Of a stretch of 64,000 bases of DNA, positions 26,117-43,069 are shown one piece after another. The stretch's first letter is position 1. Each line of letters begins with the position of its first letter. Made by a program: the position numbers and the translations under genes. A model generated the notes under the pieces. It was not told the origin of the DNA. It saw only the letters and a list, made by a program, of their open reading frames with translations, and did not search any database. This DNA is from Williamsia sp. 1135 (GTDB lineage: Bacteria > Actinomycetota > Actinomycetes > Mycobacteriales > Mycobacteriaceae): the NCBI RefSeq assembly GCF_002095395.1, contig NZ_MJEI01000095.1, forward strand, positions 1 to 64,000. Reading direction: 5' to 3'.

Positions 26117-26830
26117 TCACCCCACGACGAGCAGCACAGCTGTGGGATACGCCAGCCCGACGTATCCCACGAACAGCCGCAGGCGGTCTGGACGTACGAG
26201 AACTCGCTCAGCGAACAGGATCGCGCCCACGAGTGCCGTGACGAGTAGTGGGTGTCCGAGGAGGACCACCGCGACCATCGCCGGACCGCAGGTGTGTACA
26301 CACCAGTAGCCCTGATGGATACCAAACCTCAGACACGATTGGTCGGCTGGTCGGCCGTCGAATCGTATCGGCAGGGTTCGGTGGCAGCGCCGCAGCGCCT
26401 TCCGCTTCAGCGGCGTGAGCTCGTACAGGGCCGCGGCGGACAGTGCGAGTACGCCGATCCAGACGGGTCCACCGATGATCTCGGCGACGCCGAGAACCGG
26501 CACGCCCAGCACCACCCACACCGCCACGAAGCCCGCAGCGAACAAGAGTATCGACCGCTGCCGACGCTGCCGTCTGGTTGCGTACGCCACGTAGCGAATC
26601 GCCGGTACCGTCGCGGGGAGCATCATGGCCATGACCATCACGAGCCACATGGCGCCCGAGTCGAGAGCCGCCGCCATCGAATAGGACTGCACCTGAGCGT
26701 GATCGGCGTGTCCACCGGAACGCATCGCCAGCGTGCACCACACGATCCAGGCAGCGACCACCGCCGCGAGAACTGTCCACTCAGGCCGCGACCTGAGAAT
26801 GGCGGGTGCAGCAACGGTCCCGGTCGACAT
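26117..26830 (-). CDS. DUF2182 integral membrane protein
   Basis: The protein has 237 residues and about six helices. The family hallmarks are MVMAMMLPATVPAIRY (Met-rich helix) and a cytoplasmic loop with paired Cys/His (YELTPLKRKALRRCHR, then GIHQGYWCVHTCGPAMVAVV). DUF2182 proteins are suspected copper-handling membrane proteins. Its start lies six bases downstream of the tyrosinase stop, so it is the last gene of the reverse-strand operon. Copper delivery to the tyrosinase is a reasonable inference but unproven. Confidence 0.85.
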   Translation of the reverse strand: MSTGTVAAPAILRSRPEWTVLAAVVAAWIVWCTLAMRSGGHADHAQVQSYSMAAALDSGAMWLVMVMAMMLPATVPAIRYVAYATRRQRRQRSILLFAAGFVAVWVVLGVPVLGVAEIIGGPVWIGVLALSAAALYELTPLKRKALRRCHRTLPIRFDGRPADQSCLRFGIHQGYWCVHTCGPAMVAVVLLGHPLLVTALVGAILFAERVLVRPDRLRLFVGYVGLAYPTAVLLVVG

Positions 26831-26836
26831 CGCGAT

Positions 26837-28558
26837 TCAGCCGAGCAAGATGCTGACGGACCCGACCTGCACTGATCCGACACCCACCGTGTCGCCGGCT
26901 TCACCGATGGGTTCGAATCGCAGTCCTAACCGGCTCGGGTCGAAGTTGCCTGCGGCGACCAGCGACTCGACGATGTCGGTGATCTCGAAGGTGAAGCTCA
27001 GGCCGTGCTCGGCATCGGACCTCATCGACTCGGCCAGCCCGAACAGCGGCAGGTTACCCACCCAGGCGCCGTCCCCGCCGTCATCGACATAGACGCCGAA
27101 AGTGGTTGCAGGAATGTCGGTGGCCACCAGGTGGTCGATGGCGATGAAGACCCGTCCGGGGCTGTCGAACTGCAGGGCGGCGAAGTCGGGCATCGACAGC
27201 TCGACGGCGTTGGCGATCCCGTTCACAAGCTCGAGCGGATTGTCGATGGCGCCGATCGTTTGCGGCGGATTGTCCTCGGTCACGGCCAGTCCTCTCACCG
27301 GAGCCACACCTGCCGACGAGGGTACAGACAGGTCTTCGTACGTGTGCGGACGCGGGCTCGGCGGTACGACATCGCGGACCGCGACCGTCTGCGCCCCACC
27401 CACGGAGTCGGCAAACCCGTACGTGCGGTTGAGGAACGCGGTATCGACGGAATCGCGACCCGCTCCGGTGTTGGCGCGCCACACTTCCCACAACCGATCG
27501 ATGTTGGAGTGGTGCAACCAGAAGATCGGATCGCCCGCCGCACGATCGAAGTCCATCATCTTGCCGTTGACACCACCCACCGCGCCGTGGACGGTGCCGT
27601 GCGGCGTGCTCTCGAGTGCCCCCATGATCTGGCTGCCGGACTCGTTCAGATGATGGAATCCGGTGACCGGTCCGCCGAAACTGGGGAAAGGCGCAGTCGC
27701 AGAGAAGTCGCGCGCCCGGAACCAACCGCTGGCCCTCGTCTCAGCGGGGGTCAACCGCGCCGGGGTCGACAGGCTGTTCATCCCGGGGGCACGTTCAGCG
27801 TCGAACAGTGGGTTGGGAGCACCGTCGAGATCAGGCATTCGGAAGATGGGCGGAAGGGCGTTGCTGTCCGGGCGGTCGTAATCCCAATACGGCAGCGCCC
27901 AGGTCTGTTTGATGTCATCGGGGGTCAGCGGGTCGGCGACGATGATCTCGCGGCACACCGATTCGAACTGATCGAGATACATCCGGTGCCACGGCAGGAA
28001 GTACCACGAGAAGTGTTGGCACTGATTGCGCAGACCGTCCTGCGGATCGGGGGTCATCCCATGCACCTGGGTGTGGTGTGACCACCACATCCTGCGATCG
28101 GTGCCGGCATTGCGCTTGAGAACGCCGACGGCCCGCGCGTACGCCGTCAGGATCGGATGCCGCTGGTCGACGGCCGACAGGTGCCAGGCATCGCGCCGCA
28201 CCAGTGTCGTCGGGGGCGGCGGTGGCGGAGGTGGCGGAGGTGGGACCGGATTCTCGACCGCCACCCGAATTTCGTCCAGCCTGCGAACCGTTCGAGGTCC
28301 GACGTCATCGACGATCTCAGGCTCGGGAACAAGCAGTTCGTCACGCTTGAAACGATGTACGGCACCCGCGGACTCGCTTCCGTAGTCACCGTCGGCACCG
28401 AAGAGTGGCAGCGCTCCTGGATCCCAATCGAGTAGTGCGGTCTGGACTTTCACGACGGCCGGGTCGTTACGGTTCTGCGCCGTCGATATACGTTGCGGCC
28501 CGTCGGCCGCAATGGCCTCCAGAAGTGGATCGCCGCTGAACAGACTTGATGTGAGCAT
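26837..28558 (-). CDS. Tyrosinase-family copper enzyme with N-terminal peptidoglycan-binding-like domain
   Basis: The start ATG 28558 follows CTGGAGGTCC. Residues 30-105 resemble a peptidoglycan-binding domain (VVKVQTALLDWDPGALPLFG, DGDYGSESAGAVHRF, VGPRTVRRLDEI). A run of eleven Pro follows. The tyrosinase core has CuA ligands in SHHTQVHG and QHFSWYFLPWHRMYLDQFE, and CuB ligands in TPHGTVHGAVGG and FWLHHSNIDRLWEVW. A C-terminal beta domain (about residues 440-573) closes it. It would oxidise phenols to o-quinones. No signal peptide is seen, so export, if any, is not by Sec or Tat. Part of the giant-protein operon. Confidence 0.9.
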   Translation of the reverse strand: MLTSSLFSGDPLLEAIAADGPQRISTAQNRNDPAVVKVQTALLDWDPGALPLFGADGDYGSESAGAVHRFKRDELLVPEPEIVDDVGPRTVRRLDEIRVAVENPVPPPPPPPPPPPTTLVRRDAWHLSAVDQRHPILTAYARAVGVLKRNAGTDRRMWWSHHTQVHGMTPDPQDGLRNQCQHFSWYFLPWHRMYLDQFESVCREIIVADPLTPDDIKQTWALPYWDYDRPDSNALPPIFRMPDLDGAPNPLFDAERAPGMNSLSTPARLTPAETRASGWFRARDFSATAPFPSFGGPVTGFHHLNESGSQIMGALESTPHGTVHGAVGGVNGKMMDFDRAAGDPIFWLHHSNIDRLWEVWRANTGAGRDSVDTAFLNRTYGFADSVGGAQTVAVRDVVPPSPRPHTYEDLSVPSSAGVAPVRGLAVTEDNPPQTIGAIDNPLELVNGIANAVELSMPDFAALQFDSPGRVFIAIDHLVATDIPATTFGVYVDDGGDGAWVGNLPLFGLAESMRSDAEHGLSFTFEITDIVESLVAAGNFDPSRLGLRFEPIGEAGDTVGVGSVQVGSVSILLG

Positions 28559-28572
28559 GTCGGACCTCCAGG

Positions 28573-31500
28573 TCACAGGTACAGATGATCGGCATATACG
28601 AGACGGGAAATGCTCTGGGGTGCAGTCTGACCCGGTTCGGCGTCCGTCGGTAGCAACTCGTGTTCCTCGAGCAGTACGCGAACCGTCGTGTCGGCACCCG
28701 GTGTTGCGAGCCGGTGCGCGGGCTCGAGCGGCAGCTCACCACTCCAGCTCGCGGCAAACGACTGCGGGTCGGCACCTTCGAGATCACAGTCGACACTGGT
28801 CACAGTCGACCAGTCGAGGTCCGAGGTCGCGTCGCCGGCCCTGGTCTGCAGACTGGCGCGCACCTGCCTGCTGTTCCGCATCCGCGCCACCGTCGCGGAA
28901 CCGCCTTGCAGACCCGCCGCCGCCGCGTCGGTACCCGGGTGATCTGTGACCGCGAAGGTACCGCTGACCGTGACCCGTACCGACCCCTCGTGCGGCCGGC
29001 TCAGCGTGCAGATCCGCTGCGGCAGCAGCTGGACGAAGTCGGTGTTGGTGTCCGAGGAGAAGTGACAGTCATCGATGGCATTCGGTTGGTACCGAGCAAC
29101 ATTGAGTCGAACAAATGGCCAGGCCTTGTCCGCGGCGTCGAACCGTACGTCGACGAACCAGCGGCGCCGGCTCACGTCGTATTCCGGCGTGAACAGGTAT
29201 CCGACGACGTTGTCTCGGTCGGCTACGCGGCCATGGGGTCGACCCGGCCTGCGCTCGACGTCGACCTCGAGGGCCAACGCGCGTTCTTCCCACGCAGACT
29301 GCAACGGGAGTTCGGTCGCCGTCCCGAGACCCGGACCCAGCACCGCGGGATCACGACCCCACAGACTGACCACGTCGCGCTGGCCCGCCGGCGCATCGGG
29401 TGCGCCGATCATCACCGCCAGTTGTTCACCGTCACCGCTGGCGAACCAGGGCCTGTCCAACCAGATGCGCAGCGCACTGTGCCGGATCCGGCGTACGGCA
29501 AACGGGTGCTGCAGTTCGCTGAGTTGCTCCCAGAAGAACATCGGGAGCACTTCGTGGACGACGGGTGCCGGTGGTCGCTGCGAACTCAGATGCCGGACCT
29601 CCACCCCGTTGCCCGCCGACGCCGGGTCGTCTGCGACAGGCAGTTCCGCGGGCTCGAAGAACTCCCGATAGCGCGACGACCCGTGCAGCCGGTACGTCAC
29701 CACCCGGGTACGGGTGTCCGGCAACGTATGGGTCACCGGACGTTCGGGGACCCCGACCGGCCTCGGTCCAACGGCCTGGGCGATAGACAGGATCGAGCTC
29801 GACTCCTGCGCTCCCACCGGGAACGTGCTGACGACCTCGGCGCCACTGACGTCGCCGGCCTCGGGCAGCGCCGGGTCGTCGACGATCCCCGACCAGGTCG
29901 CCCGCAGTTCGACGCTGTCGGTGCTGCTGCCGTGGATGTCGAGGGTGCCCAGGATCTCCGCGCCGAGCACTCCCTGGACGCGCGGCTTCGTCCGCAGGGC
30001 GGTGATCGTCGGCGGCGTTGCGGGGCGGGTGGTCGCATTGACCAGCCGTAGGTCGGTGCTGGGGGTGAGCCACCACAGCCATCCGTCCGTTGCGGCCTCC
30101 GCGAGGATTGCACGATCGGTCGCTGACACCGCGGGGTCATGGACGGCATGAAAGCGCCACAATCCCAAGGTCTCCAGCGCCCCGCGGTCGATGATCGACG
30201 ACACCGCAACACCTACCTGCTCCCCTGGTGGCAGCCCGATACGCACCTCGTTGCCGTGCTGCTCGGCGCCCAGTGTGTCGGCGCTGTGCAGCACCAGTCG
30301 CAACCCGGCGACGGCCGGCCAGTCCCCCGAGTACGGGATGGTCACCGACTGCAGGATCCGGCGATCAGCGAGGTGGTGATCCGCCCCGGCTTCATAGAAC
30401 ATCAGCGCGACGCCTCGTGCCATCGGATCGGGGAGGTACGGCACCACCAGCGCGTCGGTGTCGTGGACGACGTACTGCCCCGCCGCGGGCTGAGCCTCGT
30501 CGTTCGGATGCGGCATGGCGGGGTCGGTGCGCACACTGCGGTGCTGCAACTGCTCCAACGTCACGGCCGCGGCGGGATCAACGGTCGGAGCGGACTCCAA
30601 CCGCACTGGCCACGGCACCGGGTTGGTGCGCAGCGGGTCGTCGAGGTCCTGCACCGAGGTGTGGAACAGGTTGCCCCGCTCCCGCAATGCCGTGGCGTAG
30701 GCCCGCCGACGCGCCGCCGGGTCCGGCGAGGTCATCAGGGCGTCGAAGCGGCCACCGAGTTCGGCTTCGGTCTGACTGACCTTCGGTGGGATCACGTGCC
30801 GCTCCGTGGTGGTCGACCCGGCGTCTGTCGTGCGGATCACCATGCGGTTCAATGATTCTGCGAACGTCAATCGGTGACGCGGCACGATCGTCGGTTCGGT
30901 GACCGGATCCCACCGCAGGAACAGCCGCGGCGTGGTGACCGTCTCCGGACCTCCCGACTGCGCAAACAGTACCGCGAAATCCGTTGCCGGAGTGTCCAGC
31001 TGCGGACGGATCTTCAAGCTGGTGGCGACCTGTTCGATACGTGCCATCGCGTCGTGGACCCGGCCGACGAGACCGCCGGCGTTCGCCGGATCGGTCGCCG
31101 AACGCTGGGACGCCAAGAATCCGGCGGCATCACGTGCCGCGAACTCCTGCCGCAACGTCTGCACATGGGTCTCGGCGGTGACGACGGCAACCGGGTCCAG
31201 GGCGTCGGCGGTCAAAGTGTCGGTGGGGTGGGACACGACGTTGCCTGCCAGATCGACCCCGAGAACGCGAAATGCGTACCGACGTCCGTAACGCAGGGCG
31301 GGCAGAGACCCTGCTCGGGCCGAACTGCGCACCACAAACGCTCCCGGCGTTGCCTCGCGACCGTTGTCGGTCAGGATCTCACTGCCCGGATCGACGCCCT
31401 GCCCGCTGTCGTGGACGATGTTGCGGCCCGGCCGCGGCGCGGACAGACTCCACCCGTCCCAGCCGGCGACGACCTCGTGCAAGTAGTACGGATTCGCCGG

Positions 31501-33093
31501 ATCACCTGGTACCCGGCTCGGCGAGGCACCCTGCAGCAGACCGCTGTCGGGAACGTCGGTGAGCACCACCGTGCCGTTCACCTCGACGGTCACGGTCCGA
31601 TCATGCAGGCTGTGCCACACCCGGGTGTGGTCGTCCCACACCTGCACCTGCAGGCCTCGCACGAGTTCACCGAACGTGAAACGTGGCGCGGCGACGCCGG
31701 GCGTGGAGGCGAGAACGTCGGTACTGCGGTTCTCCGCGGCGCCGACGGTCCCGCGCACGGCCGTCACCCGATTGGTGTTGGCAATCGCGAAACCATTGGA
31801 GCGCAACGTTGCCGGCGCGAAGTTCACCTCGTCGCCATTGAACTCGGCGGCCTGCGCACGGGCCGCGGACCGCAGGTGCTGTTCGAGTTTGAGTCCTGCG
31901 GCGTCGGGGTCGAGGTCCAGGACCCGGTATTCGGGCCTGCCGACCGTCAGCAGTCCGCTCTCCCACCGGCCGTCTGCGCCATTCGTGGCCATGAACCGAT
32001 CCCCGTCGACCGCGCATCGGGTCACCGGCGACAGCAGGTTCTCGACACCGGGGATCGTCACCTCGCAGGTCACCTCGGTGGCGCCGGCCAGCGTCGCCGG
32101 ATCGTCGACCTTGAGGTCGAGAACAAATCCGAGTCGACGCGCCAGCGCGGGGGTGTTGCCCGCGGCGGCTGCCAGCGAGTGGAACTCGACCTCCGGTGCG
32201 TCCGGCCGTGGTCGCGACTCACCCTCGGCGAGGGGCGGCGGCTCGGACTCCTCGGGGCGTCGGTAGTACTCGGCGCTCGCGTGGCTGTCCACCAGCATCC
32301 GCTCGACCGGCGCGGCCTGACCGGCGGCCGGAGCGAATGCGACGACGGGCCCCTCCGGCTGCGGACGGGGAGATCCGCGCAGCAGGCCCGACAGATGGTC
32401 CGACACCGCGCGATCGAAGGTCTCGAAGGCCGACGGCTCACCGGGTCTGCGGTCGAACAGTGTCGACAGCAACGACTCCGGTTGTTGTAGGCCTCGATCG
32501 CCGCCGTCGGTGCAGTCGCAGCCATCCCGCACCGACTGGGCCCGGTCACGGCGGGCCTTGTCGATCGCGGCCTCGTAGGCGCCGCGCCTGCGGCGGTGAG
32601 CTGTGAACTCCCCCAGCAACGGGCCTGTGCCGTCGATCCTCCTGCAGTACGCAAGGACCGCCGTCGCCAGACGACTGCTGCTGACAGACGGCGGTGTCAC
32701 GGGCGAGGAGAACACCGAGGCATAGTGCGCGTCGAGACCGTGGTCGCCCATCGCCGACGCGGGAAACGACTGCCACGGCGCACCCTGCGTGATCTTGGGA
32801 GCCGGGAAGCCGGTCACCGCTGTCGATGCAGGAAACGCTGCCGCCCAGCCCGCCGGATTCAGCACCGCCGTCAGCGGACGGCACGCGATCGGATCCGGTG
32901 CACCGTTGACACGCAGTGTGATCTGAGCCCCGCTCAGCGCGCCGGGCCAATCGATCAGCGCAGGGAAGTCAGCGAGGGTCCCGGCTGCGCCGTCCGGGAT
33001 GAGCCGGTGGGTGAAGAACAGCGATACGTGGAAGTCTGCGTCGGGCGCCACCGAATGCGGCAGCACGGTGGTCATCAATCTGGTGGTGGCCAT
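28573..33093 (-). CDS. Giant 1506-residue protein of unknown function
   Basis: One uninterrupted frame starts at 33093 (MATTRLMTTVLPHSVAPDAD), only 3 bases after the stop of the upstream LysM gene, and ends 14 bases before the tyrosinase start. No signal peptide or membrane helix is visible. The sequence alternates short strands and loops (FTHRLIPDGAAGTLADFPAL, GRRYAFRVLGVDLAGNVVSH, WLTPSTDLRLVN) suggesting many beta domains, as in structural or adhesive proteins. A fibronectin-like cast appears around residues 560-640. No catalytic motif was recognised. The long open frame, consistent codon use and fixed neighbours argue for a functional gene. Confidence 0.85.
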   Translation of the reverse strand: MATTRLMTTVLPHSVAPDADFHVSLFFTHRLIPDGAAGTLADFPALIDWPGALSGAQITLRVNGAPDPIACRPLTAVLNPAGWAAAFPASTAVTGFPAPKITQGAPWQSFPASAMGDHGLDAHYASVFSSPVTPPSVSSSRLATAVLAYCRRIDGTGPLLGEFTAHRRRRGAYEAAIDKARRDRAQSVRDGCDCTDGGDRGLQQPESLLSTLFDRRPGEPSAFETFDRAVSDHLSGLLRGSPRPQPEGPVVAFAPAAGQAAPVERMLVDSHASAEYYRRPEESEPPPLAEGESRPRPDAPEVEFHSLAAAAGNTPALARRLGFVLDLKVDDPATLAGATEVTCEVTIPGVENLLSPVTRCAVDGDRFMATNGADGRWESGLLTVGRPEYRVLDLDPDAAGLKLEQHLRSAARAQAAEFNGDEVNFAPATLRSNGFAIANTNRVTAVRGTVGAAENRSTDVLASTPGVAAPRFTFGELVRGLQVQVWDDHTRVWHSLHDRTVTVEVNGTVVLTDVPDSGLLQGASPSRVPGDPANPYYLHEVVAGWDGWSLSAPRPGRNIVHDSGQGVDPGSEILTDNGREATPGAFVVRSSARAGSLPALRYGRRYAFRVLGVDLAGNVVSHPTDTLTADALDPVAVVTAETHVQTLRQEFAARDAAGFLASQRSATDPANAGGLVGRVHDAMARIEQVATSLKIRPQLDTPATDFAVLFAQSGGPETVTTPRLFLRWDPVTEPTIVPRHRLTFAESLNRMVIRTTDAGSTTTERHVIPPKVSQTEAELGGRFDALMTSPDPAARRRAYATALRERGNLFHTSVQDLDDPLRTNPVPWPVRLESAPTVDPAAAVTLEQLQHRSVRTDPAMPHPNDEAQPAAGQYVVHDTDALVVPYLPDPMARGVALMFYEAGADHHLADRRILQSVTIPYSGDWPAVAGLRLVLHSADTLGAEQHGNEVRIGLPPGEQVGVAVSSIIDRGALETLGLWRFHAVHDPAVSATDRAILAEAATDGWLWWLTPSTDLRLVNATTRPATPPTITALRTKPRVQGVLGAEILGTLDIHGSSTDSVELRATWSGIVDDPALPEAGDVSGAEVVSTFPVGAQESSSILSIAQAVGPRPVGVPERPVTHTLPDTRTRVVTYRLHGSSRYREFFEPAELPVADDPASAGNGVEVRHLSSQRPPAPVVHEVLPMFFWEQLSELQHPFAVRRIRHSALRIWLDRPWFASGDGEQLAVMIGAPDAPAGQRDVVSLWGRDPAVLGPGLGTATELPLQSAWEERALALEVDVERRPGRPHGRVADRDNVVGYLFTPEYDVSRRRWFVDVRFDAADKAWPFVRLNVARYQPNAIDDCHFSSDTNTDFVQLLPQRICTLSRPHEGSVRVTVSGTFAVTDHPGTDAAAAGLQGGSATVARMRNSRQVRASLQTRAGDATSDLDWSTVTSVDCDLEGADPQSFAASWSGELPLEPAHRLATPGADTTVRVLLEEHELLPTDAEPGQTAPQSISRLVYADHLYL

Positions 33094-33096
33094 GGT

Positions 33097-36000
33097 TCAT
33101 GCTCCTAGTGCGAATGCGCCGAAGTAGTTGTCCCACATGACGTCGCCGCCGGAATCGGGCGGCATGATGTCTCGCAGGCTCGGGTCACCCTTGGACCCGG
33201 CCAGACGACGCTCGACGGTCACCTCCACCGATGCCGAGAAGAACAGCACCTCGACCTCGATCACCAGACTGGCGCGGCCGACGAGTTTGCCGGTCGCGGT
33301 GTCGTAGGTCAGTGACAACTCCAGTGTCAGCGAGGCCGAAGCAAGGCCCAGCACATCGACCTCTCCTCGGATCCGGAAGTAGGCGGTCAGCTTGCCCTCG
33401 TCACCTTCGAGTCGCAGGTAGATGCCGATCATCACCGACACCGACCCGGACGCGACCCCGAAGTCGAGGCTCAGTGCAGCGCCGGCCTCCAACCCCATCT
33501 CCAACAGCACCAAACCTTTGGGACTGAGCCGAATACCGACCCAACCACCGCCGCCGATCGCCATCACGGTGAGACGGAACGGCGACTCCTTCTTGCAGAA
33601 TCCGAAACCGACGGTCACTGCTTGGTCGAGGAATGGCACGTGACAGTCCGCGTACAGGGCGATGTTCTCGAGACTGAAGATGCCCAGTGGAATCGAGGGC
33701 AGCGCCAATTCGAACCCGGCTATGACGCCGCTGGTCGACACGTCGACGAACGGCGGATCGGAGAACCCGTCGAACGGGATGACCTCGCGGAGCTTTTCGA
33801 TGAACTCCAGCGGCCCCTCGAACTTCATGCCGTCGAAGACCACGTCGATCTCGGGCTTCCGACCGGTCGATGTGCGAAACCCGATGCGGCGAAATCGCAT
33901 CGAGATCAGTCGGGCGCCCGGCAACAGCGCCAGCGTGAAGTCGGTCAGTTGCGCACTGACGTCGGCGCGGGGGTGGTCACCGGCCCGGACTTCGACGCTG
34001 ATCGTCAGCCCCTGGCGCGACGGGAAGAACACAGCGTTGTTCTCCTCGGAACCAACCGGCCAGGGTTCGAGTTCGGGTTGCCACTCGAAACGCACCACCC
34101 CGGTGCGCAGCGAGGTCAGGACCGCAGCCAATTTCGGATCGGTCGCGACCGCGGTGATCTGCCGGAGCGCAATCGCCGGTCGCTCGATCAGCGATCGAGC
34201 CGCGGCGGGCAACGCCGGGTTCGCTACGAGACCCTGGACCTGGTCCAGGACGCCGGCAAGCACTGCCGCTTCGGCAACCGCCGCCGCGACACTGCCGTCG
34301 ACTCCTGTCAAGACGCCGTCGAATTCACCGGCCAATCTGTCTGCAGCGCCCACGATCTGACCACGTACACGGTCGACGTCCCCCAGCAGCGTCTGCAACT
34401 GCGCGGTGGCGCCACCGTGGGTCGCCTTGACGATCTCGGCGTTCACCTGCGCAGACAATCCATCGAGCGCGACTGTCAGCCGCTGGTGCTCCGACCGCAG
34501 TCCACTGACCACATCGAGCGCTTCACTCACCAGTTCTGGTGCTCTTTCGAGGCCGGTCCCGTCTGCGATCAGCTCGAGCAGACCGAACATCCCGAACAGT
34601 TTCGGCCCCGCGTTGCCCAGGAATGCCGCTGGGTCGAAGGTGCCGGCGGCCAGCGGGCTTCCGGCGGCAACGTCCTTGTCGCCGATGGCTCCGAGAGTCC
34701 GTGAGATCGCGGCAACGGTGACGTTCGGCTGTACGAACCCTCCGCTCTCACTGCTGTTGCCCCCGAAGTCCAGCACCTGCGGCCCGGTCAATGTGAGGAA
34801 CACTTCCGCCGGTCCGCTGAACCCCTGGGCTCTGAATTGTGGCTCATATTCCACCGACACCGGTGCGTTGCCGCCATTGAGCGCGCTCAGCGCCGGGATC
34901 AGGAGCTGGGACTGCTCCACCCGGGGTGCCACGAACTGGTCGGTGGCGTCGAAGTCCGCGGCGAAGGTGAGTCCCTCGACCTGGAACGTCGTATCGCCGG
35001 CGGTGCTCGACGGTGCCATGGCGACAGACTTGTCCAGGACGGTGAGCTCGGAGCGGACGTCGTTCCAGTTCTCTGCTGCCGGTGTCATCAACGCCGCGAA
35101 CTCCCGGTCGGTGTCGACATCGAGAAGTGGCACGAAGACAAGCGGGGTCTCGATGGCGATGGCCCGCCCCGCATGATCGGTACCGGTCACCCGCCACCGA
35201 AAACTGCCCACACCCTCGATCTCCGCGACAAAAGGCCGCGGCCCGGTGTCGAGTCTGATGTCGGGCGTGACAAGCGGCCGCACGGCGAGGTCCGTGAAAG
35301 GCATCGCGAAAGGAGCGGAGCTGGCCTTGCCGGTGTACGTGCGCGCGGGTTCGCGCACCACGATGAACATTCTCTTGATCAGCCGCGCCACCGGATCCGG
35401 GCCTGGTGCGATCTGCCGTTCGGTGATGATGACTCGCGTGGCGCGGTGCCCGAACGGATAGAGCAGTCCTGGCTCGTCGACCCTGACGTACGCGTCACGG
35501 CCCATGGGTGCGAGGTGCCGGTAGGCAAGAAGCTTGTTTGCCGCAGTCGCCGCCCACGAGGCGGACCAGTCGATCCAGGCACCGACGGCACTGAGCGCGA
35601 ACGTCCGGACCGACAGGGGTTCGGGCTCGACGCCGTCGACGCGATGAGAGGTCAGCTCGACGATGTTCCGTCGATGCGCCGACGTCAGCGATCCCGTGGG
35701 TTCGGCTTCGGGCGGCGCCTGGTCGTTTCGCGTGTGCAACGCGCGGACGATGCGCTGGGTCTGATCGAGGCGATCGATGCCGACGAGTTGGCCGTCGACT
35801 TCGCGACGCACCGCGAGCCGGGTGGTCCAGAGCTCGATCCGATTCGGATCACCCGGCGCGGCAACGGGTTCTGCGGAATGCGTGAATGCGCCTCGAGAAC
35901 TCGGTGACACAACCAGCCGGAAGGGTGCCTCGATGGCGGTGTCCCGATCGGTCAGCTGAGCGGGTTCGTCGGGTACCTCGACCGGGATGTCAGCAGGGTC

Positions 36001-36789
36001 GGGTCGCGGCGTCGCAGACGGTGACACAGCGAGTTTGAGAAGTGGCAGCACCCGGAGGATGCCCACCGTCGTGAACTCGATGCGGGTACCGGACGGGACC
36101 TGGAAGACGACCCTCGATTCCTTCGCTGCCAGGATCCGAGTGGGCGAGACCGTATCTGCCGCGACCTCGAAGACGTTCTGGGGGCCGAAACGGACGACGA
36201 TGTGCGCGTCGTCGGTCACCGCACGCAGGTGCCTGGTCGGGTCGACAACCGGGATCGCGGGTGCCGGCCCGGGTGGGCCCGCGATCCCCGGGATTAGGAA
36301 CACCTGGCCGGGAAAGATCAGATCAGGATTTCCGATTCCGTTGGCTGCCACGATCTCGGGGTACCGTCGCGGGTCGCCGTAGAAGCGGCCTGCGATGTCC
36401 CAAAGTGTGTCGCCGGGAACCACGGTGTGGCGAACCTCGGTGGGCACGGGCGGCAGCGCCTGCGGTGAACCAGACACCTCGACCTTGAATCCGACTGCAG
36501 TGCAGTGTAGATCGAGGAGATCGGCAGGACGGAGCAGATGGAAGTCGACGGGGTCCGGTGGACCTTCCGGCTCCACCGGGGGTGGGGGTTGGTCCGGAGG
36601 GGGCGGCGGTGGCGGCGGTGGGGGCGGAGCCAGATCGGGGATGTGCAGAACCTGCCCCGGAAAGATCAGGTCGGGGTTGGGAAGGCGGTTGGCGTCGGCG
36701 ATCACCGGAAAGAGCTCGCCGCGCCCGTAGAAGCGGGTGGAGATGGCCCACAGGGTGTCACCGGCAACGACGGTGTAGTCGTGGGCCAT
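33097..36789 (-). CDS. 1230-residue protein with two LysM domains
   Basis: The start ATG 36789 overlaps the stop of the hydrolase gene. LysM 1 covers about residues 4-52 (YTVVAGDTLWAISTRFYGRG, LIFPGQVLHIPD). A run of eleven Pro follows. LysM 2 covers about 122-168 (HTVVPGDTLWDIAGRFYGDP, FPGQVFLIPG). The middle (300-900) has beta-rich and helical parts without recognised family. The C-terminal 200 residues form a strand-rich repeat (GLVLLEMGLEAGAALSLDFG, YLRLEGDEGKLTAYFRIRGE) like a beta-barrel or sheet. LysM domains bind peptidoglycan or chitin, or in phage tails fix hub proteins. No signal peptide. Confidence 0.88.
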   Translation of the reverse strand: MAHDYTVVAGDTLWAISTRFYGRGELFPVIADANRLPNPDLIFPGQVLHIPDLAPPPPPPPPPPPDQPPPPVEPEGPPDPVDFHLLRPADLLDLHCTAVGFKVEVSGSPQALPPVPTEVRHTVVPGDTLWDIAGRFYGDPRRYPEIVAANGIGNPDLIFPGQVFLIPGIAGPPGPAPAIPVVDPTRHLRAVTDDAHIVVRFGPQNVFEVAADTVSPTRILAAKESRVVFQVPSGTRIEFTTVGILRVLPLLKLAVSPSATPRPDPADIPVEVPDEPAQLTDRDTAIEAPFRLVVSPSSRGAFTHSAEPVAAPGDPNRIELWTTRLAVRREVDGQLVGIDRLDQTQRIVRALHTRNDQAPPEAEPTGSLTSAHRRNIVELTSHRVDGVEPEPLSVRTFALSAVGAWIDWSASWAATAANKLLAYRHLAPMGRDAYVRVDEPGLLYPFGHRATRVIITERQIAPGPDPVARLIKRMFIVVREPARTYTGKASSAPFAMPFTDLAVRPLVTPDIRLDTGPRPFVAEIEGVGSFRWRVTGTDHAGRAIAIETPLVFVPLLDVDTDREFAALMTPAAENWNDVRSELTVLDKSVAMAPSSTAGDTTFQVEGLTFAADFDATDQFVAPRVEQSQLLIPALSALNGGNAPVSVEYEPQFRAQGFSGPAEVFLTLTGPQVLDFGGNSSESGGFVQPNVTVAAISRTLGAIGDKDVAAGSPLAAGTFDPAAFLGNAGPKLFGMFGLLELIADGTGLERAPELVSEALDVVSGLRSEHQRLTVALDGLSAQVNAEIVKATHGGATAQLQTLLGDVDRVRGQIVGAADRLAGEFDGVLTGVDGSVAAAVAEAAVLAGVLDQVQGLVANPALPAAARSLIERPAIALRQITAVATDPKLAAVLTSLRTGVVRFEWQPELEPWPVGSEENNAVFFPSRQGLTISVEVRAGDHPRADVSAQLTDFTLALLPGARLISMRFRRIGFRTSTGRKPEIDVVFDGMKFEGPLEFIEKLREVIPFDGFSDPPFVDVSTSGVIAGFELALPSIPLGIFSLENIALYADCHVPFLDQAVTVGFGFCKKESPFRLTVMAIGGGGWVGIRLSPKGLVLLEMGLEAGAALSLDFGVASGSVSVMIGIYLRLEGDEGKLTAYFRIRGEVDVLGLASASLTLELSLTYDTATGKLVGRASLVIEVEVLFFSASVEVTVERRLAGSKGDPSLRDIMPPDSGGDVMWDNYFGAFALGA

Positions 36790-38138
36790 CAGATGTCCTT
36801 CCCAGCACCGGTCGAGGTCGTGACCGGCAGGAGCATCGCGCTCGCCACGACCCAGGCCAGCGTGGGTTCGAAGATGTCACTGTGAGCCCCCGAAGGTGAG
36901 TTTCCTTGAGCCACATATTCTGAGGCGTCGAAGTTCGAGATGGCACCGCGCCCGAACTGGTAGGTCGTCCCGACCGGGCCGAGCGGTGCCGGCACCACGC
37001 CGTGCGCTCCGTGCGATCCCATCGCCCGCCATCGTGCGAGCGGGTCTGTCGCACCGGCGGCATCGGCACCTGTGCCTCCCAGCATGCTCGCGATCGGATA
37101 GAACGTACCCAGCGCGTGATCGTGTGTCGAATAGCACACCGAGATCGGACCGTCGACCCGGTTCAGCGTCCCGGCCAGTGCCCCGGCGCCCGAGCGGAAA
37201 GGAAGCCGGTCGGTGAACGCAAACCGGGAGAACGCCGCCTGCAAGAGGGTGACGGACTTGAGGGGAGATGCCTGACCTTCTGGTAGCGCGGGCAACGCAA
37301 ACGACACCATGCGGCCGCCGAAACTGTGCCCCACCAGATGGATTCGCAGCTCCGGGAACTCCGAACCGAGCTGGTTCACTGTCGGCCCCAGGCCCACACT
37401 GCCAACCGTGCCCGCCCGCTGCTTCATCCGCCAGTAGGACGCCTGCCGGAGGGTCTCCTTGGCCCCCGCCAGGATCTTCGCGCCGACGTCGCGGAGCCCG
37501 GCAGCACCGACATCCGGGGCGTCGATGATCGCCCCGGTCGCCGTGATCGTGTCAGCCAGATACTCGAATGTCTCCGTCGGGGTGCGATGGTCGGTGAACA
37601 TCCCCGGCAGCGGTGGCGCAGAACCACTCTCACCGTCGTCGAGGTCCGGTTCGATCCGGCTGAACGCTTCGATCTCGCGGTACAGCGCCGCGATCGAATC
37701 CTGGGTCACCGGCACGGCGAGGAGCCCGGCGACAGCATCGAGATTGCTTGCCCGCTCAGGAAAGAGGTCTTTGAGGTCCGCCAGGATGTCGGGGTCCAGC
37801 TCGGAGGTCAGCACGGCGGCCGACGACGTGGTGACCACACCGGCGGATCCCCCGCCATCGACGGTCGGCGGCTCGAAATCCGGGATCGGCTCGTCGCGCC
37901 AGAGCTGAGAGGGCCAGTACAGGCCGACGAAGCCGACCTTTGCGGCGTCGTCCAGGTGGGGCCGCAACAACTCGAACCACCGCTCGTACAGCGACGTCGC
38001 CTGCTGCGCGCCGTTGTTCCAACCATGCGAGAACACCACCAGATCGCGGATCCCCGACTCCCGGATGTTCGTGATCAGGTTCGGTACGGACCCCGGGCCG
38101 GGATGGCCGTCGGCGTCGTAGGTCAACGTCCACAACAT
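36789..38138 (-). CDS. Alpha/beta-hydrolase-fold protein
   Basis: The protein has 449 residues. Early strand and oxyanion region read RDLVVFSHGWNNGAQQATSL. The nucleophile elbow is LVGHSFGGRMVSFALPAL (GHSFGG, G-x-S-x-G). A later His lies in the HDHALGTFYPIAS segment. The insertion between strands (residues 90-250) is large and acidic. This fits lipases or esterases of the DUF900-like group, but the substrate is unknown. It starts 26 bases after the protease stop and its own stop overlaps the LysM gene start, so translation is probably coupled. No signal peptide. Confidence 0.8.
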   Translation of the reverse strand: MLWTLTYDADGHPGPGSVPNLITNIRESGIRDLVVFSHGWNNGAQQATSLYERWFELLRPHLDDAAKVGFVGLYWPSQLWRDEPIPDFEPPTVDGGGSAGVVTTSSAAVLTSELDPDILADLKDLFPERASNLDAVAGLLAVPVTQDSIAALYREIEAFSRIEPDLDDGESGSAPPLPGMFTDHRTPTETFEYLADTITATGAIIDAPDVGAAGLRDVGAKILAGAKETLRQASYWRMKQRAGTVGSVGLGPTVNQLGSEFPELRIHLVGHSFGGRMVSFALPALPEGQASPLKSVTLLQAAFSRFAFTDRLPFRSGAGALAGTLNRVDGPISVCYSTHDHALGTFYPIASMLGGTGADAAGATDPLARWRAMGSHGAHGVVPAPLGPVGTTYQFGRGAISNFDASEYVAQGNSPSGAHSDIFEPTLAWVVASAMLLPVTTSTGAGKDI

Positions 38139-38163
38139 TGCAGATCCTCTCGTGAGAACGGTG

Positions 38164-39999
38164 TCAAACTGATTGGAGTGCGCGCATCAGATCCAGCAGG
38201 CCGCCACCCTCGAAGGCGGGGTCGCGCCCGAGCGGTGTTGCCGAGTCGACGAAGATCTTCTTGATCTCCTCGGGCTTGCCGATGAACTCTTTCTGTACGG
38301 ACAGGAACGCGGCGATCGCGCCCGATACGTGGGGCGCAGCTATACTGGTGCCGCTGTCCTCCACATACACCGCGCGACCGTCGAGTCCCTCGGGATGTGC
38401 GTTGAGGACGGGTTGCAACATGGCACCGGCGGCCGCTGAGGTGATCCGCTCGCCGGGCGCCACCAGATCCGGTTTGCACCTGCCGTCGCCGGTTGGCCCG
38501 CGCGAGGAGAAGTACGAGATCCCGAACGTGTGCGGGGCATCTCGATGCGTCGAGCCCACAGTGATCGCCCGCGCAGCGTTTCCGGGATCGTTGATCGTCA
38601 TGGCCGCACTGAACTTCGTCACCATCGACCTTCCCGGTGCCAGCGTCACGTAGCCCGAGTTGCCCGACGCAGCCACCACGACCACGCCGGAGCGGACGAG
38701 CTTGTCGACCTCCAGACAGAGTGGACTGCGACCGCATGCGAACCATTCCGGATCGAACTCGTAGCCGAGACTCAGATTGACCCCGTGTATCCGGGGCAAC
38801 TTGTCACTCGAGGCATTCAACTCACGCACGTAGGCCAACGCACGGATCACCCGAGTGACGCGGGTGGTGGGATCACCACCGGCCAGCACCTTGAGGCTGA
38901 CGAGCCGCGCGCGGGGGGCCATGCCGGCCAGCATTCGGGGGTCGCTTACCTCGCGGGGTTGGGTGATCGGATAGTCACCGGCCGCGACGTTGAACCGCTG
39001 TTCGGTGACCAGCGGGGTGGGCTGGTCGTCGGCCCAGTGTTCGAGACCCCCGGCAATGACGCCGGCCACATGAGTCCCGTGGCCGAGTTCGTCCTGCAGA
39101 GCGGTTGTGGGGTCATTGCTGTCGATCGTGAAGTCGCGGTGCAGATCCTTCACCGAACCGTGGGTCAAGGTCTCGTAACCGACGAAGTGCGGATGGCCGG
39201 CCTGTACACCGGAATCGACAACCGCCCAGACAATCCCGTCTCCGAAGCTGTTGAAGGCGCGGTGGGCCGCCTGCGCCTTGATCGTCGTCGCCGATACATC
39301 GATCTGCGGATGCACCTCGAAGTCGGGCCAGATGCGGTAGACCGCACGGTTCTCCCAGGCGCCTGCTGCGCAATCGGCCGTCACGAGTCCTTCGAGTTGT
39401 CCGGTGGTGAGCTCACCGGATGCATACTCGTCGGCGAGAAGTAGTGGAGCACTGTGGCCACCGATGTATTTCCACAGCTGTTCGATCCGGTCCATCGCCG
39501 CTCGTGCACCCGGCCGGTAACGCAGGTTGAGCTCGATCATGATCGGCCAGCGACTCTGCCGGGTGCGGGGTGGCACCGCATCCGCGCCCTCGACGAACAT
39601 CTGCCGCAGCGCGGGTGTCAGTACCCCCGCGAGCACGGGGTTGCGGTCGGCGGGGCCGGTGTACGCCGCTGCCAGTGGCCTTTCGGGATCAGCCTGCGCT
39701 CGTGCGTCGGCGTCGGCGAGTGTTCCTCGACCCTGCGCCGTCAACATCCAGACTGTCTCGTCGCCCCCGACGCTTTCGATCACGTGGGCAGCGGCAAGCT
39801 GATCGGCGGCGCCACGGACCTGTTGGTGCCACGACGGTTCCTGCTGTTCATACAGGCGCGCCCGATCGTCGAATCGGGACGCGTATCGCGCCGCCACCAT
39901 CTGCCGGAGTCGCTGATCGTCGGCAGGCTCGCCGATGCCCTCCAGCGCGCCGACAGCGCTCTGTACACGATCAACCCAAACCCGACCGACCTCGACCAT
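38164..39999 (-). CDS. Subtilisin-like serine protease with an N-terminal winged-helix-like region
   Basis: The protein has 611 residues. The S8 triad is visible: Asp in WAVVDSGVQAGHPHF (about residue 264), His in GHGTHVAGVIAGG, Ser in DSGTSIAAPHVSGAIAAF; the oxyanion Asn lies in VVVAASGNSGYV. The first 95 residues contain SWHQQVRGAADQLAAAHVIE, then VWMLTAQGRGTL, which resembles the winged helix at the N-terminus of Mrr-type proteins. There is no signal peptide, pro-peptide or membrane anchor. It is the first gene of the six-gene operon. It may process the large downstream proteins or act inside the cell. Confidence 0.9.
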   Translation of the reverse strand: MVEVGRVWVDRVQSAVGALEGIGEPADDQRLRQMVAARYASRFDDRARLYEQQEPSWHQQVRGAADQLAAAHVIESVGGDETVWMLTAQGRGTLADADARAQADPERPLAAAYTGPADRNPVLAGVLTPALRQMFVEGADAVPPRTRQSRWPIMIELNLRYRPGARAAMDRIEQLWKYIGGHSAPLLLADEYASGELTTGQLEGLVTADCAAGAWENRAVYRIWPDFEVHPQIDVSATTIKAQAAHRAFNSFGDGIVWAVVDSGVQAGHPHFVGYETLTHGSVKDLHRDFTIDSNDPTTALQDELGHGTHVAGVIAGGLEHWADDQPTPLVTEQRFNVAAGDYPITQPREVSDPRMLAGMAPRARLVSLKVLAGGDPTTRVTRVIRALAYVRELNASSDKLPRIHGVNLSLGYEFDPEWFACGRSPLCLEVDKLVRSGVVVVAASGNSGYVTLAPGRSMVTKFSAAMTINDPGNAARAITVGSTHRDAPHTFGISYFSSRGPTGDGRCKPDLVAPGERITSAAAGAMLQPVLNAHPEGLDGRAVYVEDSGTSIAAPHVSGAIAAFLSVQKEFIGKPEEIKKIFVDSATPLGRDPAFEGGGLLDLMRALQSV

Positions 40000-40422: not shown

Positions 40423-43069
40423 ATGGATCACGAGTGGCCGATCGTAGGCCGTCAGGAAGAAGTCGCACTGGCCGCTGCCGCCATCACGTGCCGCGAACCC
40501 GGCCGTGGCATGGTCGTCGGTGGGTCCGCGGGGGTGGGCAAGACGCGGTTGTGTGCAGAAGCCGTGCGCGTGGCCATCCGCCTCGGACACCGTTGCCATC
40601 ATGTGGCGGCAACCGCTTCGTCGCGGGACGTCCCACTCGCCGTCTTTGTCGAGTTCGGTGTCGATGTGGATGCCGACCCCCTCCGCCAGATCCGAGACCT
40701 GTTGCACAGCCTCACATCCGACGATTCGCGACACCCCGCTGTCGTCGCGGTCGATGATGCCCATCTGCTCGACAACCGTTCGGCGTTCGTGGTCCATGAG
40801 CTCGTGGTGCGCAAGATGGCGAACGTCGTGCTGTCGATTCGCACCGGCGAAGCCGCCCCCGACGCCATCACCGCGTTGTGGAAGGACCACCACGTGCCGC
40901 GGCTGGAGCTGCAGCCATTGTCGCGCAGGGAGGTCGGCGCATTGTTGGAAGGAGCGCTGGGTCGCCCCGTTGAATCGACGAGCCTGCGCAGGCTGCACGC
41001 CATGTCGGACGGTAACGCGCTGCTGCTGCGCCAGCTCGTCGACGACCAGCTCGCCGCGGGACGGCTGCGCCTCGATTCCGGACTGTGGTTCTGGTCCGGA
41101 GACCTCGCGATCACGCCGACGCTCGCCGAGATGGTCCGACTGCGCCTGGCCGGCTTTTCAACGGACGTGTTGGCGCTTGTCGACCTGCTGGCGGTGAGCG
41201 AGCCCCTGACCACCGACGAACTCGGCACGCTGGTCAGTGCGGAGACCCTCGAACTCGCCGAGACCGTCGGGGCGATCAAGACGCGAGTCACGGCCAGGTC
41301 ATCGATCTCCATCCGCCTGAGCCATCCTTTGCAGGGTGAGATCCGTCGAGCCGACCTCGGCCACCTGCGGCGTAGGCGATTGGCAGGGACGATTGCGCAG
41401 GCTCTCACACCCGGCCCGAGGAGCGATCCGTCGAGCCTCCTTCGTCATGCGGTACTGACCCTGGACTCCGATCTCCCCGCCGACCCCGACCTCTTGGCGG
41501 CGGCCACGCGGGCCGCGATGCTCGCGCTCGACGTCGACCTCGCAGTCAGATTCGCCTCCGCCGCGCTCGGGCTCACCGCCACCCCGGCAACCGCGTATCC
41601 GCACGTGATGTCGCTCATGGTCGCCGGCCAGGGGGACGCCGCAGAGGAGTTCTTCGTGGCGATGACCATCGCACCCGACCAGCCTGAATATGCCCGGTGG
41701 ACCACGTTGCGCGCAGCGAACATGGTGTGGATGCTGGCTCGGCCCCGCGACGCGGCGATGCTGCTCGACACCATCACCGGAGCGAGCCTGTCGTCCGTCG
41801 CGCGAGCCGAACTGGCAGCCGTCCGTGCGTGTGTCCTCGCCGTCGAGGCGAATCCCGCGGCGGCAGTCACCGAGGCGCAGGGCGCCCTCGCGGAGGACGA
41901 GCTCGGCGACTTTCATGCGCTGATGGCGGTGGCCGCCATGGTGATGTCCGCGGGCGCGGCCGGGAACTTCAGCGCAGCAAACGAATACGCGGCCTTCGGC
42001 CAGGCGCGGGCTGCGGCGTCGTGGCAGACCGCGCACCTGCAGTTCTGGCTCGGCGCGATTCACGCCCGGGTCTGCCGCATCTCCGGCCACGTGGACCGTT
42101 GCGCCGACGATGCGATTCGGCTGACCGATATCGCCCGCGATGTGTCGGGGCCGACGCAATTCCAAGCCACCTTCTTACGCGGTCACGCGGCCCTCGCCGG
42201 CGGGCGGGTACAGACCGCGATCACCGAGCTACTCGATTCGCTGGTCGGGAGCGCGAATGGGCACCGCGACACCACCGGCTTGGGCCCGGCCTGCCTCATC
42301 TGGCTCGCCGAGGCCTACGCACAACGCGGTAGTCCGGCCTCGGCCCGGTCGACGCTGTCCGAACTCGCAAAAATCCTGCCCGCCGAATACGCCTTCATGC
42401 AATTCGGCATGGAGCTCGCCGCAGCCTGGACCGAGGCTGCCGAGGGAGTGGTCAGCCGAGCTGTCTCCATCGCCCTCACCGCCGCCGAGACTGCTTGCAA
42501 ACGAGGGCAATTCGCTTACGAGGTGCTCGCACTGCAAACAGCAACGCAATTCGGCAGCACGTCCGCCGTCGAACGTTTGCACCACCTCGCGCAGTTCGTC
42601 GAGGGTCCAAGAGTCGCAATCGCTGCCCGCCACGCCTGCGCTACACGAGGACGACGGCGCCGGACTGCTCGCGGTGGCCCACGACTATGAGCACATGGGC
42701 GACCTCATCGCGGCGGCCGATGCCGCCGCACAGGCCGGCAGAGCATGGGTCGCGGCGAACCGGCGGGGGTCGGCACTGGCCGCTTACGGTCACACCCAGC
42801 GCGTTGCCCGCGCATCAGGCTGCAGCACAACACAAGCCCCACACCGCACGGCGGCGACCGACCCGTTCACCGCACGTCAGCGAGAGGCCATCGCTCTGGT
42901 GGCGGCGGGACTGACCAACGTCGAGATTGCCGAGCGCCTCACCGTGTCCGTGCGTTCAGTCGAAGGACACCTGTACCGCGCCGCTCAACGAGTCGGCGTC
43001 ACCAGCCGAGATGAGCTCGCGGATATCCTGAACTCATCCAGGCGTCCGGACGTCGCAGAACTGAGGTAG
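40423..43069 (+). pseudogene. Large LuxR-family ATPase regulator (LAL/MalT type), frameshifted before the DNA-binding domain
   Basis: The start ATG 40423 follows GAGGGGGTC. The ATPase part has Walker A GSAGVGKTRLCAEA (about residue 34) and Walker B AVVAVDDAHLL. A long helical repeat region (residues 250-740) is the usual TPR-like sensor. The first frame ends at 42690 in basic nonsense. The helix-turn-helix is in another frame (FTARQREAIALVAAGLTNVE, then IAERLTVSVRSVEGHLYRAA), ending at 43069. Removing one C at 42635-42636 restores a protein of about 881 residues. It is divergent from the giant-protein operon and likely its regulator if intact. Confidence 0.8.

Follow-up and report, generated by a model that had tools for sequence, protein, structure and literature searches.

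A co-inherited pair of giant proteins within a stacked six-gene run of Williamsia

Main

In a 64,000-nucleotide stretch of DNA from Williamsia sp. 1135 (the window; contig C54 in a genome of 5.98 Mb), six adjacent genes encode two giant proteins, here called A and B, and four smaller ones. Gene order and co-evolution show A and B, as far as sequences can tell, to be a co-inherited unit, and our searches support their status as a conserved pair for which no described family was found. The run as a whole stacks three two-gene cassettes: subtilase with hydrolase, A with B, and tyrosinase with PpoB2. We give an even chance to the reading in which A and B are one co-inherited complex that acts outside the cytoplasm, held at the surface by exchangeable anchors, with the enzymes co-located at the wall.

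Architecture of the six-gene run

The close-packed reverse-strand run described in an earlier note on this DNA is real. Six minus-strand open reading frames (ORFs) extend from 39999 to 26117, abutting or overlapping, with distances of 25, -1, 3, -4 and 6 bases, and encode in order of transcription the subtilase, an alpha/beta-hydrolase-like protein, A, B, the tyrosinase and PpoB2 (Table 1). Catalytic motifs are present in the subtilase (VVDSG at residue 260, HGTHVAG at 307 and GTSIAAPHVSG at 550), in the hydrolase-like protein (a GHSFGG nucleophile motif at residue 270) and in the tyrosinase. At the downstream end a type-3 copper domain is followed, after a 6-base gap, by a PF09948 chaperone, with the histidine motifs present. 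This last gene had been called DUF2182; it is indeed there, but its current name is PpoB2, a copper chaperone (Pfam PF09948). The note had seen by eye no signal peptide on the four enzymes and giants that it tested; hydropathy alone likewise shows no N-terminal signal on the two giants, the subtilase, the hydrolase or the tyrosinase.

Adjoining the subtilase, positions 40423-42690 of the window encode a divergent AAA-like ATPase of 755 residues with weak TPR-like matches, a candidate regulator of the operon. Pfam gives the divergent ATPase (P0007) sub-cutoff or borderline matches to AAA_22, AAA_30 and AAA_16 only.

Table 1. Features of the six-gene run, in window coordinates.
Feature	Position	Strand	Evidence
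Subtilase (S8 peptidase), 611 aa	38164..39999	-	Pfam PF00082, E 3.8e-38
Subtilase catalytic domain, residues 253-591	about 38227-39243	-	PF00082; motifs
Alpha/beta-hydrolase-like protein, 449 aa	36789..38138	-	Pfam matches sub-cutoff only; relatives on 26 plasmid records
Giant A, 1230 aa	33097..36789	-	ORF and relatives
LysM 1 of A, residues 5-51	36637..36777	-	Pfam PF01476, E 2.9e-24, two stretches
11-Pro run of A, residue 55, between both LysM	36595..36627	-	Sequence
LysM 2 of A, residues about 120-173	36271..36432	-	PF01476
C-terminal core of A, residues 905-1230, best conserved part	33100..34077	-	Alignment; ends W..Y..AFA plus three residues
Giant B, 1506 aa, without known domain	28573..33093	-	ORF and relatives
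Tyrosinase, 579 aa	26837..28576	-	Pfam PF00264, E 1.6e-32; PF25271, E 1.7e-12
Weak peptidoglycan-binding-like module of tyrosinase, residues 7-114	28235..28558	-	Similarity to W. faeni L005:18344-19198
11-Pro run of tyrosinase, residue 112, between module and tyrosinase domain	28211..28243	-	Sequence
Tyrosinase central domain, residues 165-368	27473-28084	-	PF00264
DUF7868 of tyrosinase, residues 470-576	26849-27169	-	PF25271
PpoB2-type (DUF2182) membrane copper chaperone, 237 aa	26117..26830	-	Pfam PF09948, E 1.1e-31; hydrophobic stretches

Distribution and co-evolution of A and B

Both proteins occur in 34 of 36 loci, which comprise actinobacteria, proteobacteria and one virus-catalogue contig, and A lies directly upstream of B on the same strand in 34/34. 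Eight of the 36 are plasmid records chosen from hits, partly because both proteins matched; the fair test of pairing is given by the genome loci reached via B alone, where A stands beside B in 22 of 24 (11/12 in a phylum sample and 11/12 in two class samples). The two loci without a full A (L056 and L096) have marginal B matches (E 7.1e-5 and 4.2e-5) and only a partial A-like match. In 32 loci, homology places the B start between -19 and 42 bases from the A stop, and the annotated genes of two large rhizobial loci are 15 and 11 bases apart.

Pairwise distances among A proteins follow those among B proteins (r 0.91, n=30 of the 34 loci; the maximum of 2000 permutations is 0.34). The two trees have 18 of 27 splits in common; among splits with bootstrap of at least 95, 12 are common, out of 14 for A and 15 for B, with 0 conflicting pairs. 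When neighbouring ORFs of at least 80 residues were clustered across 22 loci, no other gene reached the spread of A and B. Two clusters, with members in 17 and 15 loci, are encoded on the strand opposite to that of A; third in size comes a cluster from 8 loci, one member of which is annotated in L008 as an ABC ATP-binding protein.

By profile search, B is present in 13 of the 396 genomes examined from the phylum, in 14 of 394 from the class to which the window belongs and in 6 of 66 from another class; these samples overlap, and the window's genome enters both of the first two counts. B is also present on 14 plasmid records (tblastn), including Cupriavidus, Diaphorobacter, Rhizobium and Streptomyces, and A on 90, with 6 of the 20 matches listed covering the LysM part only. 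One further A/B pair lies on an IMG/VR contig; there, the minus-strand ORFs before A/B (L058:129-3810) resemble, on inspection by eye, genes for phage packaging and heads, and the pair may sit beside a prophage.

Several loci differ in form. Rhizobial A and B are much larger (L101:7539-22213 and L012:11248-25722; A of 3052 and 3106 residues, B of 1766 and 1780), and both of these A proteins carry Tat-like leaders. In two loci (L008:14152-18475 and L047:16560-20557) two overlapping ORFs make up A, possibly through a frameshift or sequencing error. In one actinobacterium the gene after B (L041:17245-18198) encodes 317 residues with a 16-Pro run before a cysteine-rich end, one more proline spacer beside A/B. 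Apparent B fusions of 2155-3029 residues (L038, L039 and L052) were set aside as out-of-frame extensions over the A gene.

Domains and family status of the giants

The description of B as a 1506-residue protein with no recognised domain holds for Pfam (E 0.1), NCBIfam and PHROG, the last scanned with the window's protein only; Pfam gives PG_binding_1 in one of nine B relatives, and NCBIfam gives nothing for the relatives. A is, as had been described, a 1230-residue protein with two LysM domains (Pfam PF01476), which Pfam also detects in 3 of 8 A relatives, by alignment the three Williamsia. A relatives without LysM have no convincing family match, and none of the six scanned against PHROG has a match there at E 0.1. 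Individual A relatives gave weak hits to Apolipoprotein (E 0.067) and to a vitellinogen shell (E 0.19), which we set aside, and the PDB sequence matches to the B and A profiles, at E 0.067 or worse, were taken as chance. The window's A and those of 12 of the 19 loci listed end in W..Y..AFA, in some cases followed by a few more residues; 6 loci have variants of this motif and 1 has none.

No family model in these libraries gives a convincing core match to A or B. The earlier note knew of no described system with this set of genes; for the giants themselves, no described family was found in Pfam, NCBIfam or PHROG. Their novelty rests on missing family models and on literature searches short of a full review, which returned no described A/B family and cannot show absence from print. 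The AlphaFold model of A residues 176-1230 (mean pLDDT 37, pTM 0.29, above 70 only in a helical stretch) is unusable, and no predicted fold supports a function for A/B.

Parts of A match phage profiles. Its LysM matches phage tail and baseplate profiles, and residues 767-871, helical and poorly conserved, match a baseplate-hub PHROG (E 1.5e-4). Together with the lack of signal peptides on the window's proteins and the one relative on a virus-catalogue contig beside phage-like genes, this would fit a tail-like or contractile-injection-type particle released by lysis, in which LysM would form the tail hub and the enzymes would be the cargo. We consider such a particle very improbable, however: the contractile sheath PF04984 has 0 matches in the whole of the window's own genome, against 3 positive among 14 control genomes, B is unmatched in 50,697 phage records, and the six A relatives without LysM drew a blank in PHROG.

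Separate occurrence of the cassettes

Searching with A identified Williamsia soli as a relative, along with a record under the name W. faeni whose title carries UNVERIFIED_CONTAM. All six genes recur in W. soli, with identities of 88-96% and with proline runs of 9 and 23 at the places of the window's two runs. The W. faeni record has A and B only, about 70% identical, without the four other proteins, and the gene after B encodes a different protein of 284 residues with an N-terminus like that of the tyrosinase. A genus-wide search of nine Williamsia genomes for B, the hydrolase and the tyrosinase found B in three, the hydrolase in two and the full tyrosinase in two, with one more genome matching the tyrosinase's N-terminal module only; the full six-gene set was found in 2 of the 9.

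The outer cassettes were also met elsewhere. Hydrolase neighbourhoods were viewed in 4 of the 26 plasmid records: the subtilase lies directly upstream of the hydrolase on Rhizobium and Sinorhizobium plasmids (L098 and L099), with no A/B in the stretches seen; on a Rhodococcus plasmid the ORF before the hydrolase relative matches the final 103 residues of the subtilase; and on a Nostoc plasmid (L102:7950-15703) the hydrolase relative is instead followed by a C25 cysteine peptidase and CHAT-domain proteins. Members of the hydrolase family may thus have different protease partners. Tyrosinase with PpoB2 recurs on a plasmid of Rhizobium ruizarguesonis, some 18 kb away from an A/B pair. On plasmid B of Sinorhizobium americanum CCGM7, a protein of 975 residues annotated as an S8 family serine peptidase (L100:6234-9161) is tyrosinase-like at residues 590-951, an apparent natural peptidase-tyrosinase fusion.

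One six-gene machine as a general rule was rejected, since the cassettes occur apart. The earlier note had proposed a single system of six genes, and this is not supported: A and B stand alone in the W. faeni record, subtilase and hydrolase lie without A/B in the stretches seen of two rhizobial plasmids, and tyrosinase with PpoB2 is a known pair. Nor did we find support for its suggestion that A and B are matured by subtilase cleavage or tyrosinase oxidation. Separate occurrence of the genes in relatives, which the note had named as refuting its reading, was observed in part, at the level of cassettes. A cassette view explains why the six genes together resembled no described system.

It is quite possible, though we would put it somewhat short of probable, that the genes are only stacked, as three independent cassettes under a common promoter that do no joint work. 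Each cassette has been seen without the others, and the complete set was found in two of nine Williamsia genomes, as this account would have it; yet genes overlap at both cassette borders (-1 and -4), the high identity to W. soli extends to all six, and in both Williamsia versions the gene after B starts with a related peptidoglycan-binding-like module.

Export signals and surface modules

A rule for Tat-like leaders, written after examples had been seen, picks out 9 of 38 A ORFs (from 9 of the 36 loci) and none of the 34 B ORFs. It also picks out 7 of 1613 other ORFs from these loci, which served as controls; they are mechanical ORFs scanned over their first 100 residues, a smaller search space than for A. 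An earlier, stricter rule had given 5 A leaders, then 6 over a longer stretch, and the A of L052 has a tenth Tat-like leader by eye. By the rule that gave nine, A has no Tat-like signal in 27 of 36 loci, and hydropathy shows none on the window's own A and B. Seven Tat-bearing loci cluster in the midpoint-rooted A tree and not in the B tree; two others lie outside the trees. On S. meliloti pC, a plasmid typed conjugative, an annotated tatA (L012:25772-25939) lies 49 bases after B.

The best single argument for B travelling with A comes from the sequence of one actinobacterium (G304), in which A has a Tat-like leader and B has none and ends in three CWB2 cell-wall-binding repeats; as this B directly follows the A gene, its start is unlikely to lie much further upstream. 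The G304 pair bears a wall-binding domain together with a Tat-like leader; the window's pair has the domain only. Wall or glycan modules were seen in few loci: one B relative, assigned by eye to S. nigrescens, has a PG_binding_1 insert, and the A of G684 has an N-terminal PLL3-lectin match (E 1.3e-5). LysM itself is also borne by proteins that are not wall-anchored, such as a potassium-binding protein among the LysM matches.

For the tyrosinase, the earlier note had reported a run of eleven prolines next to a wall-binding-type module, and a like run in A. Both runs are exactly 11 residues long, but the module is weak: Pfam gives it nothing at E 0.1 and PHROG a single endolysin match (E 0.031), and it resembles the W. 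faeni protein (E 1.4e-7), which scores 20.2 bits against PG_binding_1, the cutoff being 23. Its identity as a peptidoglycan-binding module is weakly suggested, mainly via this W. faeni similarity.

The idea of a released or exported assembly that binds the wall, also put forward earlier, is favoured by relatives with export-like signals and wall-binding modules, but the window's own pair has no recognisable signal. This lack, together with the 27 loci without a Tat-like signal on A and the absence of one from every B, would suit a cytoplasmic A/B complex in most lineages, Williamsia included, with LysM bound to a non-wall target and export derived in some relatives. We regard this as unlikely, though not negligible: a double LysM with a Pro-rich spacer on A makes most sense outside the cell, PG_binding in one B and CWB2 on a signal-less B fit an extracellular place best, and the Tat-like leaders occur in widely spread loci.

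An extracellular pair might also be turned against other cells. The lectin-like N-terminus of one A, the patchy distribution and the carriage on plasmids are in keeping with a secreted two-subunit factor for antagonism or adhesion, not a scaffold on the producer's own wall. Pfam recognises no toxin domain in A or B, however, and the C-terminal parts of both are conserved, not polymorphic; we find such a role improbable.

Discussion

We return to the reading to which we gave an even chance, that of a surface-held A/B complex outside the cytoplasm. A and B would be two subunits that bind each other, and in part of the family an A with a Tat signal would carry the signal-less B out in folded form. 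Outside, swappable anchors would hold A/B at the cell surface: two LysM domains on A in Williamsia, CWB2 repeats on B in G304 and the lectin-like stretch on A in a third actinobacterium, G684. In Williamsia the complex would sit at the wall via LysM, having left the cell through a signal of a kind we did not recognise, through another secretion system or by lysis. The tyrosinase-PpoB2 and subtilase-hydrolase cassettes share the operon here and in W. soli, and we think it most likely that they would bring phenol oxidation and hydrolysis to one place on the wall, with A/B as scaffold; the tyrosinase, by its weak wall-binding-like tag and proline linker, may place quinone chemistry there.

A broader version, which we offer tentatively and hold to be unlikely, makes A/B a widespread extracellular two-protein machine, exported folded by Tat, docked on wall or glycan and serving as a platform for lineage-specific enzymes with peptidoglycan-binding tags and poly-proline linkers, here the tyrosinase and in W. 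faeni another domain.

Phyla as distant as Actinomycetota and Pseudomonadota keep together a pair that spans about 8 kb and for which the libraries searched offer no curated family model, a large gap in annotation. Should A/B leave the cell as a single folded complex, it would be a very large cargo for Tat and a test of the size limit of the pathway, and it might serve as a natural scaffold for enzymes at the bacterial surface.

Comparison with known systems sets the cassettes in context. The window's subtilase matches the PADLOC models of IetS from the IetAS anti-phage system, in which the partner of IetS is the AAA ATPase IetA; unlike there, its co-directional neighbour is hydrolase-like. 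A defence system was rejected, as PADLOC matched the subtilase only, of five proteins scanned. The Streptomyces MelC1/MelC2 system exports a signal-less tyrosinase with a Tat partner, and the window's tyrosinase is likewise signal-less, with a chaperone that is PpoB2-type. The rhizobial cassettes of S8 peptidase and hydrolase (L098 and L099) share with the window the subtilase directly upstream of a hydrolase relative; unlike the window, they show no A/B in the stretch seen, and their function is unannotated.

The tyrosinase and PpoB2 genes (28576-26117) resemble the PpoB1/PpoB2 operon of Marinomonas, a tyrosinase with a COG5486/DUF2182-type copper chaperone, where PpoB2 takes part in passing copper to the tyrosinase (PMC2855505); unlike that pair, the window's tyrosinase has the peptidoglycan-binding-like module and 11-Pro linker and sits behind the giants. 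For A and B, the nearest likeness is to Tat hitchhiker complexes, a principle reported for E. coli PaoABC (PMC4273604), with heterodimers bearing one signal treated in PMC10924467. Unlike such hitchhikers, A and B belong to no known enzyme family by their matches, their size is very large, and most members, the window's included, have no signal; they share with them an adjacent partner without a signal (0/34 B; adjacency 34/34), and in the loci with Tat-like leaders (9 of 36 by the rule written after the fact, 5 or 6 by the stricter one) a putative signal on A alone.
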